This document shows positions 23,724-27,243 of a stretch of 64,000 bases of DNA, piece after piece (positions within the stretch are counted from its first letter, which is position 1; every line of letters starts with the position of its first letter). The translations under genes and the position numbers were made by a program. Source of the DNA: Draconibacterium mangrovi (GTDB lineage: Bacteria; Bacteroidota; Bacteroidia; Bacteroidales; Prolixibacteraceae); assembly GCF_010586825.1 (NCBI RefSeq), contig NZ_JAAAGB010000010.1, positions 62,001-126,000 of the forward strand, given 5' to 3'. Below the pieces are notes generated by a model that saw nothing but the letters and a program-made list of their open reading frames with translations, did no database searches and had not been told where the DNA came from.

Positions 23724-24647
23724 ATGGAATTATTCGAAGCGCGCAATGTAAACAAGGTTTTTGCCAGCACTCAGGCATTAACCGATGTTAGCATTTCGGT
23801 GAAAGAACAAAGTATTTTTGGTTTGCTTGGCCCCAATGGCGCGGGCAAAACCACTCTCATCCGCATTATTAACCAGATTACCGCCCCCGACAGCGGTGAG
23901 ATATTTCTGAACGGAAGAAAGATGAACAGGACAGATATCTCCCACATTGGCTACCTGCCTGAGGAACGCGGACTGTACAAAAAAATGAAGATTGGCGAGC
24001 AGGCAATTTACCTGGCTCAGCTAAAAGGCATGTCGTATCGTGATGCATCGAACAACCTGAAAAAGTGGTTCGAGAAATTTGATATCATGCCCTGGTGGAA
24101 CAAAAAAGTGGAAGAGCTTTCGAAAGGAATGCAGCAAAAAGTGCAGTTTATCACCACCGTTGTTCATCAGCCCAAACTGTTGATTTTTGATGAGCCTTTT
24201 AGCGGTTTCGACCCGATAAATGCCAATCTGCTGAAAAAGGAAATTCTGAACCTGAAAGCAGAAGGTGCCACCATAATCTTTTCCACACACAACATGGGTT
24301 CGGTTGAAGAACTGTGCGATCACATTGCGCTGATCAATAAATCGAAAAAGATTGAAGACGGGCCAACCGACGAAATCCGAATGAAATACAAAACCAACAT
24401 TTTCGACATAAAATACCGGGGCGAGTTCCGAGAAATCGATTTGGCTTTGGGCAACGATTACAAAATCATCAGTCACGATGAGTCGGATAAGGCAAACACC
24501 TTGAAAGTGCAATACATGAACGGAAAATCAAATAACGAATTGTTGTCGTCCATTATGCCGGCAGCCGAAATTCTGGCATTTGAAGAGCTTATTCCGAGTA
24601 TGAACGATGTTTTTATTAAAGCCGTTGAAGAGTCGAACAAAAACTAA
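23724..24647 (+). CDS. ABC transporter ATP-binding protein (NatA-like)
   Basis: A 307-aa cytoplasmic ATPase. Walker A is GPNGAGKTT (36-44), the ABC signature is LSKGMQQ (132-138) and Walker B is LLIFDEP (Asp156, Glu157). The C-terminal 80 residues form the extension typical of the DrrA/NatA/CcmA export group (DUF4162-like). It pairs with the ABC-2 permease 10 nt downstream. The Na+-efflux pump NatAB of B. subtilis is the nearest characterised layout, but the substrate is not deducible. Confidence 0.9.
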   Translation: MELFEARNVNKVFASTQALTDVSISVKEQSIFGLLGPNGAGKTTLIRIINQITAPDSGEIFLNGRKMNRTDISHIGYLPEERGLYKKMKIGEQAIYLAQLKGMSYRDASNNLKKWFEKFDIMPWWNKKVEELSKGMQQKVQFITTVVHQPKLLIFDEPFSGFDPINANLLKKEILNLKAEGATIIFSTHNMGSVEELCDHIALINKSKKIEDGPTDEIRMKYKTNIFDIKYRGEFREIDLALGNDYKIISHDESDKANTLKVQYMNGKSNNELLSSIMPAAEILAFEELIPSMNDVFIKAVEESNKN

Positions 24648-24657
24648 ACAAACCGTC

Positions 24658-26001
24658 ATGAACAACACATTGCTAATATTAAAACAAGAATACCTTAAAC
24701 GGGTAAAAAAGAAATCGTTCATCATATTAACCATCCTGATGCCGTTTTTAATTGCCGGCGTTTACGGACTGGTCATCTATTTCTCGATAAAAGACGATAC
24801 GGAAGAACGCACCATCGCGGTATACGATGCCACCAATTTATTTCTTGGCGAATTCAGCGAGGAAGGCACAACGAACTACCATTTTATTCCGAAAAATGAA
24901 TATGAAACATTAAAAACCAATCTGAAAGGCAGTGGTTATTACGGCCTTCTGTTTATTCCATCAGATATTTATTCGAATAACCAGGCGCAACTTTTCTCCG
25001 AGAAACAGTTGCCGTTTGAATTGACTGAACAAATTGAGCGCAAACTCAGCCGTTTTATCGAAAATGATAAACGCCAAAAAGTAATCGAGGAATCGGGCAT
25101 CCCCGATCTGGAAGAACGCCTGAGCAAAACACGAACCAGTGTAAACCTGAGCACGCTTAAGGTATCGCAATCGGGCGAAACCAAAAAAAGCTCATCAGTA
25201 GTGGCTTTTATTGCCAGTTATGCCATGGGGCTGCTCATTTATTTCTTTGTGTTTATGTACGGCGCCATGGTTATGCGCAGTGTAATGGAAGAAAAGAAAA
25301 GCCGTATTATAGAGGTGATCATCTCATCGGTAAAACCCAGCCAGCTGATGGCCGGCAAAATTATCGGAACCGCATTGGTTGGCCTCACACAGGTTGCTAT
25401 CTGGCTTGTTTTAGGAGGCATTGGACTGGTAGTGGTACAGAGTCTCTTTTTCACGCCCGAAACGGCACAGCAAATGGGACAAAGTATTATGGAATCGCAG
25501 GGGCAAATGAACCCGGCAGCCATGCAGGCCGCCCAACCGAACCAGGTTAAGGAGGTTATGGAAATGATTGGCAACCTGAATCTGCCACTTATTTTGTTCG
25601 CTTTTGTGTTCTATTTCCTTGCCGGTTATTTATTGTACAGTGCTTTATTGGGTGCTGTTGGTGCCGCTGTCGACAACGACGAAGATTCGCAGCAAATGGT
25701 ATTCCCGGTAACTTTCCCATTAATCCTTTCGATTATGCTGCTGTTTCCCATAGCAAAAAACCCGGAAGGCCCGCTGGCATTTTGGTGTTCCATAATTCCG
25801 TTCACTTCACCGGTGGCTATGATGGCGCGTGTTCCTTACGAAATACCTGTTTGGGAACTATTACTTTCGATGGGCCTATTGGTGCTGACAACCATCGTGT
25901 GCATTATGGCAGCTGCCAAAATTTACCGAATTGGGTTACTGATGTATGGTAAAAAGGTAAATATTAAAGAACTGATTAAGTGGCTTCGGTATAAAGGATA
26001 G
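24658..26001 (+). CDS. ABC-2 type permease (NatB-like)
   Basis: From the ATG at 24658 this is a 447-aa permease: a first transmembrane helix at about 21-43, a large extracytoplasmic domain (about 45-180), then five helices in the C-terminal half. The motif MVMRSVMEEKKSRIIEVIISSVKPSQLMAGKIIG is characteristic of NatB/ABC-2 permeases, and PFTSPVAMMARVPYEIPVWE is another family block. It forms an exporter with the ATPase directly upstream. A longer in-frame reading from 24607 would overlap that gene and is not favoured. Confidence 0.9.
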   Translation: MNNTLLILKQEYLKRVKKKSFIILTILMPFLIAGVYGLVIYFSIKDDTEERTIAVYDATNLFLGEFSEEGTTNYHFIPKNEYETLKTNLKGSGYYGLLFIPSDIYSNNQAQLFSEKQLPFELTEQIERKLSRFIENDKRQKVIEESGIPDLEERLSKTRTSVNLSTLKVSQSGETKKSSSVVAFIASYAMGLLIYFFVFMYGAMVMRSVMEEKKSRIIEVIISSVKPSQLMAGKIIGTALVGLTQVAIWLVLGGIGLVVVQSLFFTPETAQQMGQSIMESQGQMNPAAMQAAQPNQVKEVMEMIGNLNLPLILFAFVFYFLAGYLLYSALLGAVGAAVDNDEDSQQMVFPVTFPLILSIMLLFPIAKNPEGPLAFWCSIIPFTSPVAMMARVPYEIPVWELLLSMGLLVLTTIVCIMAAAKIYRIGLLMYGKKVNIKELIKWLRYKG

Positions 26002-26101
26002 CTACAGAAATAGTAGGTTTTCTTAACAAAGAAGTGAAAAACATGATTTTTTTCATATTTATTATTTAGAATAAATAAAAATTACATATATTGCACCCAT
26101 T

Positions 26102-26176
26102 ATGAAGAACACCGGTAACAATATGATGATGTGTTGTTGTTTCCTGAAAAACGGGAAAGGTGTTGTAGTGTTTTAA
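26102..26176 (+). CDS. Leader peptide of the cysK attenuator (Met3-Cys3)
   Basis: A 24-codon reading frame starts at ATG 26102 and ends at TAA 26174. Codons 8-13 are ATG ATG ATG TGT TGT TGT, giving a run of three Met then three Cys, both rare amino acids. It is followed 28 nt later by an intrinsic terminator and 100 nt later by cysteine synthase. Its position and codon run fit a ribosome-sensing leader peptide. Transcription probably starts close to 26100, so the mRNA may be nearly leaderless. No protein function beyond sensing is implied. Confidence 0.85.
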   Translation: MKNTGNNMMMCCCFLKNGKGVVVF

Positions 26177-26235
26177 CTTGAGCTAAATTGCAAGATTATA
26201 CGAGGCCTTTCCGTGAACGGAAAGGCTTTTTTTTT
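26141..26235 (+). promoter_or_regulatory. Cysteine-responsive transcription attenuator upstream of cysK
   Basis: Terminator: GCCTTTCCG (26205-26213) pairs perfectly with CGGAAAGGC (26218-26226) across a TGAA loop, followed by nine T residues (26227-26235). Antiterminator: GGAAAGG (26154-26160), inside the last third of the leader frame, can pair with CCTTTCC (26206-26212), the left arm of the terminator. A ribosome stalled at the Cys codons (26132-26140) would leave 26154-26160 free and allow read-through. A ribosome that reaches the stop codon at 26174 would cover it and let the terminator form. The logic is that of the trp/his attenuators, with cysteine (and possibly methionine) as the signal. 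Confidence 0.82.
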
Positions 26236-26276
26236 GTTAAAAGAATATTTACCGAAATAACTCAATAATTAAAAAA

Positions 26277-27188
26277 ATGAAAGCTAAGAACATTTTAGAG
26301 ACCATTGGCAACACGCCACATGTGAAAATTAACCGCCTCTATCCGGAGGACTACGAAGTTTGGGTGAAAGTTGAAAAAACAAACCCGGGAGGAAGTATAA
26401 AAGACCGTATTGCACTAGCGATGGTAGAAGATGCGGAAAAGAAAGGGATATTAAAAGAAGGTTCGGTGATTATTGAACCTACATCAGGAAATACCGGAAT
26501 CGGATTGGCATTGGTGGCAGCCGTAAAAGGTTACCGACTAATTCTTACCATGCCTGAATCAATGTCGTTGGAGAGAAGAAGAGCTTTGAAAGTATTTGGT
26601 GCCGAATTGGAACTAACACCAAAAGAAAAAGGAATGAAAGGTGCCATTGCCAGAGCTGAAGAACTGGCCAGTGAGCTGGACAATGCCTGGATTCCGCAAC
26701 AGTTTAACAATCCGGCAAACGTGGCGGTACACCGCGATTTTACCGCACAGGAAATTCTAAATGATTTCCCTGAAGGTTTTGATTACCTCATTACCGGTGT
26801 TGGTACCGGAGGCCACATCAGTGGAGTTGCCGAAGTTTTAAAAGCAAAATTTCCGAACCTGAAAGTTTTTGCCGTTGAACCGGATTCAAGCCCGGTAATT
26901 GGCGGTAAAGATCCCGGTCCTCACGGAATTCAGGGAATTGGTGCAGGTTTTATTCCGAACAACCTGAATACCGAACTTCTTGACGGAACAATAGAAATCA
27001 GCAAAGACGAAGCTTTTGAATACGCACAAAAAGCAGCAAAACAAGAAGGTTTGTTTGTTGGTATTTCATCGGGTGCATCGTTGGCAGCAGTTGCCAAAAA
27101 GATTAAGGAGCTTCCGAAAGGATCGCGGATTCTTACCTTTTCGTACGATCATGGCGAACGTTACTTATCTATAGAAGGATTATATTAA
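26277..27188 (+). CDS. cysK: Cysteine synthase (O-acetylserine sulfhydrylase)
   Basis: A 303-aa PLP enzyme that makes cysteine from O-acetylserine and sulfide. The PLP lysine is Lys42 in NPGGSIKDR. The substrate loop is [13 protein letters not shown], the glycine-rich phosphate-binding loop is [10 protein letters not shown], and a C-terminal SSGAS contacts PLP. Length and motifs fit CysK rather than cystathionine beta-synthase, since no CBS or haem domain is present. Expression is likely controlled by the attenuator directly upstream. A terminator at 27211-27243 makes it a single-gene unit. Confidence 0.95.
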
Positions 27189-27210
27189 AACTAACTTCAA
27201 TATAAAACAA

Positions 27211-27243
27211 GGGGATCATTCGAAAGAGTGGTTCCCTTTTTAT
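27211..27243 (+). terminator. Intrinsic terminator of cysK
   Basis: GGGGATCATT (27211-27220) pairs with AGTGGTTCCC (27227-27236) over ten positions when G-U pairs are allowed, followed by a T-rich run. It lies 22 nt after the cysK stop codon. Confidence 0.7.

Follow-up and report, generated by a model that had tools for sequence, protein, structure and literature searches.

The classical leader-peptide attenuators are those of the amino-acid operons trp, his, leu, ilv and phe in Proteobacteria, while the Cys T-boxes and S-box (SAM) riboswitches of Firmicutes read the tRNA or SAM directly, without translation. Attenuation is said to have been surveyed in Lopatovskaya 2010, and Canestrari 2020 reportedly deals with mycobacterial and other actinobacterial leader ORFs that carry cysteine runs. 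In Actinobacteria, mycobacteria included, leader ORFs with a run of Cys codons lie upstream of cysteine and sulfur genes, and the accessible portion of the article describing them gives them no conserved terminator hairpin (PMC1262725). A survey published in 2010 states, in the part available, that to its authors' knowledge leader peptides were unshown outside Proteobacteria and Actinobacteria before their own case in Firmicutes (PMC2965389). In the phylum Bacteroidota, amino-acid operons of Flavobacterium psychrophilum have been suggested to be attenuated through leader peptides (PMC9723704), and long 5' UTRs of Bacteroides thetaiotaomicron were found to carry short frames reminiscent of this (PMC7366714); the extracts of these two articles propose attenuation in the same phylum and name no cysteine or methionine leader. 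Another survey of short leader genes also covers Bacteroidetes, according to its available extract (PMC4833913). None of the literature matches listed describes an attenuator in Bacteroidota that reads cysteine or Met/Cys; as they covered subscription journals thinly, a prior mention is possible.

We analysed a window of 64,000 nucleotides (the whole stretch presented above) from a 5.9 Mb Draconibacterium genome, whose CysK shares 97% identity with the CysK of Draconibacterium sediminis and of D. orientale. Sequence comparison leads us to propose, with a probability of roughly 0.87, that cysK is controlled there by a ribosome-mediated transcription attenuator sensing charged cysteine tRNA and perhaps methionine tRNA as well. 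All the elements lie on the forward strand. The leader peptide frame MKNTGNNMMMCCCFLKNGKGVVVF has 24 codons (26102..26176, from the ATG at 26102 to the TAA at 26174-26176) and contains three Met codons (26123..26131) directly 5' of three Cys codons (26132..26140), the latter being the proposed control codons. Further on, within the same frame, comes GGAAAGG (26154..26160), the antiterminator 5' arm, which is complementary to CCTTTCC at 26206-26212. This second segment belongs to an intrinsic terminator (26205..26235) composed of a perfect 9-bp stem (GCCTTTCCG at 26205-26213 and CGGAAAGGC at 26218-26226), a TGAA loop (26214-26217) and nine T (26227-26235), the left arm of which thus serves also as antiterminator 3' arm. 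The putatively controlled gene, cysK, encodes a cysteine synthase A of 303 aa (26277..27188; TIGR01139, 403 bits for a curated cut-off of 351). The first-pass annotation had claimed this leader with its Met and Cys triplets, the terminator, the 7-nt segment able to pair with its left arm and a cysteine synthase as next gene, and all four are present as described. The predicted folding energy of the region 26098-26240 is -41 kcal/mol, while 200 shuffles average -27 (z -4.4).

A promoter scan proposed the pair TTTAGA, 16 nt, TATATT (26065..26092), the 3' end of which lies 9 nt before the ATG, so that the cysK leader would be nearly leaderless; the scan returned 7 promoter-like pairs, compared with 6.4 in shuffles, that is, no excess. 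A TATATTGC-like box occupies the same place in most of the Draconibacterium-type loci compared. We dropped the idea that the cysK leader is always nearly leaderless, as other genera have a promoter-like box further upstream. At the other end, a scan located a terminator-like hairpin 3' of cysK (27209..27238), which is consistent with a single-gene transcript. On the same strand, frames read by eye as an ABC-transporter-like ATPase and permease pair occupy 23724-26001 and end 100 nt before the leader.

The mechanism that we propose would work as follows. With plentiful Cys-tRNA, the ribosome would pass the Cys run and cover GGAAAGG within the leader frame; the terminator would then form and transcription would end near 26235. 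With Cys-tRNA in short supply, the ribosome would stall at 26132-26140, its front edge just before GGAAAGG, and the freed segment would pair with CCTTTCC, the left arm of the terminator, letting RNA polymerase read into cysK. Such a scheme implies that a transcript would start upstream of the leader, that the frame would be translated, that stalling would depend on the supply of Cys (and Met) and that read-through would change with it. As in the trp, his, leu, ilv and phe attenuators, there are control codons, an intrinsic terminator, an antiterminator exclusive of it and a biosynthetic target; unlike in these classical cases, control would be exerted by Cys and perhaps Met, the antiterminator arm lies within the frame and the phylum is Bacteroidota. 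The actinobacterial leaders share with this one a short Cys-run frame before cysteine or sulfur genes, whereas a conserved intrinsic terminator and a co-varying antiterminator set the cysK leader apart from them, as far as they are described in the accessible portion of the article (PMC1262725). The cysK leader would represent a cysteine attenuator whose intrinsic-terminator mechanism is complete.

Conservation was studied upstream of cysK in the family Prolixibacteraceae. A CysK search in 140 family genomes gave a match at E <= 1e-90 in 121; the matches included 98 places of the window's CysK type, and the upstream DNA of 85 of these was read. A leader with at least two consecutive Cys codons followed by an intrinsic terminator was found at 70 of the 85 loci, versus 0/850 dinucleotide shuffles and 0/85 reverse strands. 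When an antiterminator at the right place was also required, 59 of the 85 loci remained, versus 0/850 shuffles; the locus counts are uncorrected for relatedness. Because the scan requires two consecutive Cys codons, their presence is no evidence in itself, and it is the contrast with the shuffles that counts. The same contrast bears on the reading of the leader as a chance short frame beside an ordinary terminator of the upstream gene, which the end of the permease-like frame at 26001 and the frequency of terminators in general could suggest: with 70 real loci against no shuffle and no reverse strand, and with the co-variation of both helices reported below, we regard it as having practically no chance of being correct.

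Of the 15 loci without a consecutive-Cys leader, 13 show no Cys leader of any sort. Two of the misses (L119 and L153) retain a C-x-C leader and a terminator, three (L139, L141 and L147) retain only a terminator-like hairpin, and the other 10 have no terminator at the score used, with weaker hairpins in four of them. L139 (genome G009) and L141 (genome G020), close kin of leader-bearing loci, keep the terminator and have no readable Cys leader; they are possibly decayed or mis-sequenced attenuators. For the other type of cysteine synthase (about 55% identical), no Cys leader was seen at any of the 5 loci read. The cysK leader is present in Draconibacterium orientale, Maribellus luteus, Mariniphaga anaerophila and Sunxiuqinia elliptica, which makes the device directly testable in named organisms.

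At the level of codons, TGT and TGC occur in ratios of 49/15, 38/26 and 40/11 at the three Cys positions of the 64 distinct leader peptides, the third being occupied by another codon in 13 leaders and by Cys in 51. Peptide residues beyond the Cys/Met zone are far more variable than the Cys positions. Both synonymous codons being used while the remaining peptide diverges, the comparison indicates that codons, and not bases alone, matter in the cysK leader. It also weighs on the idea that the product of the short frame is a small peptide with a function of its own, such as a metal-binding or an arrest peptide rich in Cys and Met, to which the terminator would respond. The frame is indeed kept, and motifs such as MCMCMCC resemble metal-binding sequences; the divergence of the residues outside the Cys/Met zone, the steady distance that this zone keeps from the antiterminator, the sulfur-assimilation nature of the target genes and the fact that a leader of 24 residues would hardly leave the ribosome all make this explanation very unlikely.

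The two helices were examined in an alignment of 40 sequences, from which near-identical leaders and, by hand, twelve duplicate or doubtful loci had been removed, and which includes a few sequences from outside the family. In these selected sequences, 90.0% of the cells of the antiterminator helix are paired. This percentage, the covariation score and the number of cells with a two-sided change (19) were each reached by 0/500 shuffles; the number of pairs with a two-sided change (4 of 7) was equalled by 134/500 shuffles and the number of pair types by 46/500. Sliding the partners by one to three columns lowered the pairing to between 41 and 70% (maximum 70.0%). The terminator helix is paired at 95.2%, with two-sided changes in 7 of 10 pairs, a value equalled by 1/500 shuffles. 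As both helices use the same left arm, they cannot both form.

A 5' region with a terminator would also be expected for a riboswitch or a protein-bound leader that is not read by the ribosome. Rfam 15 gave no match at gathering score in the window, and among 14 loci only one tRNA was matched. Apart from the two exclusive helices, the T run and the Cys codons, of which selection had required two, nothing resembling an aptamer core is visible in the alignment. We consider a riboswitch or protein-bound leader extremely unlikely. The ribosome-read attenuator has in common with the Cys T-boxes and the S-box the attenuation of transcription of sulfur amino-acid genes, and differs from them in being apparently read by the ribosome and in having no Rfam match.

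The spacing of the elements was measured on the 53 distinct leaders with a clear antiterminator. Counted from the start of the Cys run, the median positions are +23 for the antiterminator start (range 18 to 32), +42 for the stop codon and +71 for the terminator; in 52 of the 53 leaders the antiterminator segment is entirely before the stop codon. We then modelled the folding of the nascent RNA at equilibrium, with the front edge of the ribosome placed 13 nt past the first A-site base, which is the E. coli figure. With stalling at Cys codons 1, 2 and 3, the model predicted the antiterminator (P > 0.5) in 94, 98 and 100% of the leaders, respectively, and ribosome edges at codons -3 and -1, where Met is common, gave 96 and 94%. 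With the ribosome at codon +5 the predicted antiterminator fell to 45%, and at +7 to 4%, these late states blocking the segment partly by construction. Several features by which attenuators are generally recognised are found together at this leader: a cluster of control codons, an intrinsic terminator, an antiterminator excluding it and, in the model, a stall that frees the antiterminator and an advanced ribosome that covers it.

In the same model without a ribosome, the antiterminator was predicted in 68% of the 53 leaders, and its segment was sequestered by upstream sequence (P > 0.5) in only 26% of them, which means that the classical protector step would be missing in most. We accordingly rejected a general protector hairpin; the window itself has a possible one of 7 bp, in which TTTCCTG (26140..26146) pairs with 26152-26158 in a fold of 26135-26240. 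The general lack of this hairpin predicts that a loss of leader translation would raise read-through. It also distinguishes the cysK leaders from the trp type, with its conserved protector 1:2 hairpin, and we do not class them as trp-type in that sense.

The first-pass annotation had anticipated several of these results. It had proposed two mutually exclusive structures, and the co-variation of two helices that share the terminator left arm bears this out. Its argument that a ribosome held at the Cys codons leaves the segment free, and one at the stop codon covers it, agrees with the median spacing of +23 and with the nascent-RNA folding under the assumed footprint. The comparison of relatives that it called for showed Cys codons conserved through TGT/TGC changes, co-variation of both stems, and the leader frame with its Cys run in 70 of 85 family loci. 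Its general proposal, a Cys attenuator before cysK, gains from the conservation of the Cys run, the exclusive co-varying helices, the steady spacing and the nature of the target.

The covariance model R1, built from the 40 cysK leaders, gave one strong match in the genome of the window, the cysK leader itself, and its weak matches included a second leader. The latter, MVNTFSKIAMMKMTCMMCMCCDVIVVQRN, in which Met and Cys codons are interleaved, precedes with its terminator the sulfite reductase operon cysG-cysJ-cysI. The genes that follow it encode a DUF2061 protein, a CysG N-terminal protein (91 bits, cut-off 62), CysJ (737 bits, cut-off 668) and CysI (806 bits, cut-off 757); a uroporphyrinogen-III methyltransferase gene comes later. 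CysJ relatives occur in 86 of the 140 family genomes. At the 50 loci read (the best 30 and 20 picked across genera), a Met/Cys leader followed by a terminator was found 40 times, against 0/250 shuffles and 0/50 reverse strands, and three of the ten misses (L276, L285 and L288) have weaker relatives of the leader. The Cys codons of the sulfite reductase leaders are TGT in 147 cases and TGC in 17. Their antiterminator is paired at 98.4% in 32 selected sequences, with a two-sided change in 1 of 8 pairs (reached by 478/500 shuffles); it shows little co-variation because the sequence is nearly invariant. Outside the Met/Cys zone, many of these leaders have in common SSEI or TSV at the N-terminus and QK close to their end.

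The suggestion that methionine may be read together with cysteine, which the first-pass annotation drew from the Met run, gains support. Among distinct cysK leaders, Met occupies position -1 in 39/63 and position -3 in 36/63, as against 1 to 6 leaders per position from -9 to -4 (58 to 63 leaders) and at most 9/63 downstream, counts that are not independent since the leaders are related by descent. We rejected a universal MMM run: MMM before CCC is confined to Draconibacterium and some near kin. For the Met share, defined as Met / (Met + Cys) over the densest ten-codon stretch, the 39 sulfite reductase leaders compared give 0.57 and the 64 cysK leaders 0.34 (Mann-Whitney p 2e-11, an optimistic value as the sequences are related). 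The existence of a second Met/Cys leader in the genome and the fixed positions of Met speak for the suggestion; the MMM run did not prove general, and in 7 of the 64 distinct cysK leaders the densest Met/Cys (control) zone lacks Met. The enrichment at -1 and -3 supports, and does not prove, a reading of both sulfur amino acids. That the attenuator would read cysteine only, the Met codons being incidental or else acting as spare start codons or as sequence context, is a possibility to which we give a little less than even odds. It would account for the seven leaders whose control zone is devoid of Met, for the occurrence of Met at -1 in 39 of 63 leaders and not in all, and for the cysteine-specific function of cysK; the peaks at -1 and -3 and the mixed, Met-richer sulfite reductase leaders count against it. 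Since Met has a single codon, synonymous change cannot reveal selection on the Met codons.

Similar leaders were found beyond the family. In the class Bacteroidia, relatives of a siroheme-type nitrite/sulfite reductase, searched with a query from a locus found through R1 (L185), occur in 48/197 genomes. At the 30 best sulfite-reductase-type loci, 20 show a Met/Cys leader and a terminator, against 0/150 shuffles and 0/30 reverse strands, and in 7 of those 20 two leader-terminator units stand in tandem (L299, L305, L308, L309, L310, L311 and L320). At L309, the tandem units lie between a frame that looks by eye like MetX and the reductase gene. L295, which is the L185 locus, was scored as a miss, yet it has a frame with MCCCC. 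The naming of these genes as sulfite-reductase-type rests on one tested member, L185, a protein piece scoring above the cut-off of Pfam NIR_SIR and below those of all the NCBIfam nitrite and sulfite reductase models, so we infer sulfite rather than nitrite as substrate. The leaders of the class differ widely (MCMCMCMCCC, MMCCMMCCC, CCTMCCTCC), which argues for selection on Met/Cys codons and not on one RNA sequence.

Other target genes emerged from the R1 matches. At L186, a Met/Cys leader and a terminator precede an O-acetylhomoserine sulfhydrylase gene (TIGR01326, 696 bits); another Met/Cys frame lies upstream, at an R1 match of its own. At L187, a Cys-weighted leader stands before a cysE-like and cysK pair, the cysE-like gene scoring below its NCBIfam cut-off, and at L189 one stands before a gene that is similar by eye. 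Having been found through their resemblance to R1, these three loci are examples and not counts. R1 matches occur in 285 of 395 class genomes, a figure that we do not count as attenuators because, in the genome of the window, most of the next R1 matches read (L175-L178 and L180-L183) were ordinary terminators; our counts include only loci at which the leader frame itself was read. The use of R1 as a genome-wide finder of attenuators was rejected for this reason.

For cysK itself, genes of the window's type outside the family are mostly without a leader: a loose pattern gave candidates at 6 of 29 class-or-phylum loci, and a stricter one at 19 of 80 named cysK loci, 13 of them with family-type leaders by eye, this stricter scan having missed some leaders seen otherwise, such as those of L043, L046, L059 and L060. 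At L058, L060, L103 and L112, the titles of which name Ignavibacteria or relatives (assembly titles can err), Cys-run leaders and terminators precede cysK-type genes; from these loci, the device may reach beyond Bacteroidia.

Taken across loci, the sequences lead us to lean slightly towards a leader-peptide regulon of Bacteroidota that would read two tRNAs at once, with Cys-weighted leaders for cysK and cysE-cysK and Met-plus-Cys leaders, sometimes two in a row, for the shared step of sulfite reduction and for O-acetylhomoserine sulfhydrylase, where a shortage of either amino acid would open the genes. The Met/Cys leaders would then offer natural two-input (Met or Cys) switches, some of them in tandem, and a widespread translation-read switch of this kind would control sulfur amino-acid synthesis without a dedicated regulator protein.

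Two further leaders concern other genes. At L195 (1468-1660), a Cys-rich leader, MKTISHIAAAFCCVCCCCACWRGKASCVLR, and a terminator precede the gene of a RimK-like ATP-grasp protein. In the genome of the window, at L178 (G000:C22:201146-201268, reverse strand), a branched-chain leader, MRILSINVIVLLVVILGNTEKGH, stands with a terminator before ilvD (dihydroxy-acid dehydratase, 844 bits), which makes it probable that classical Ile/Val/Leu attenuation is at work in this genome as well.
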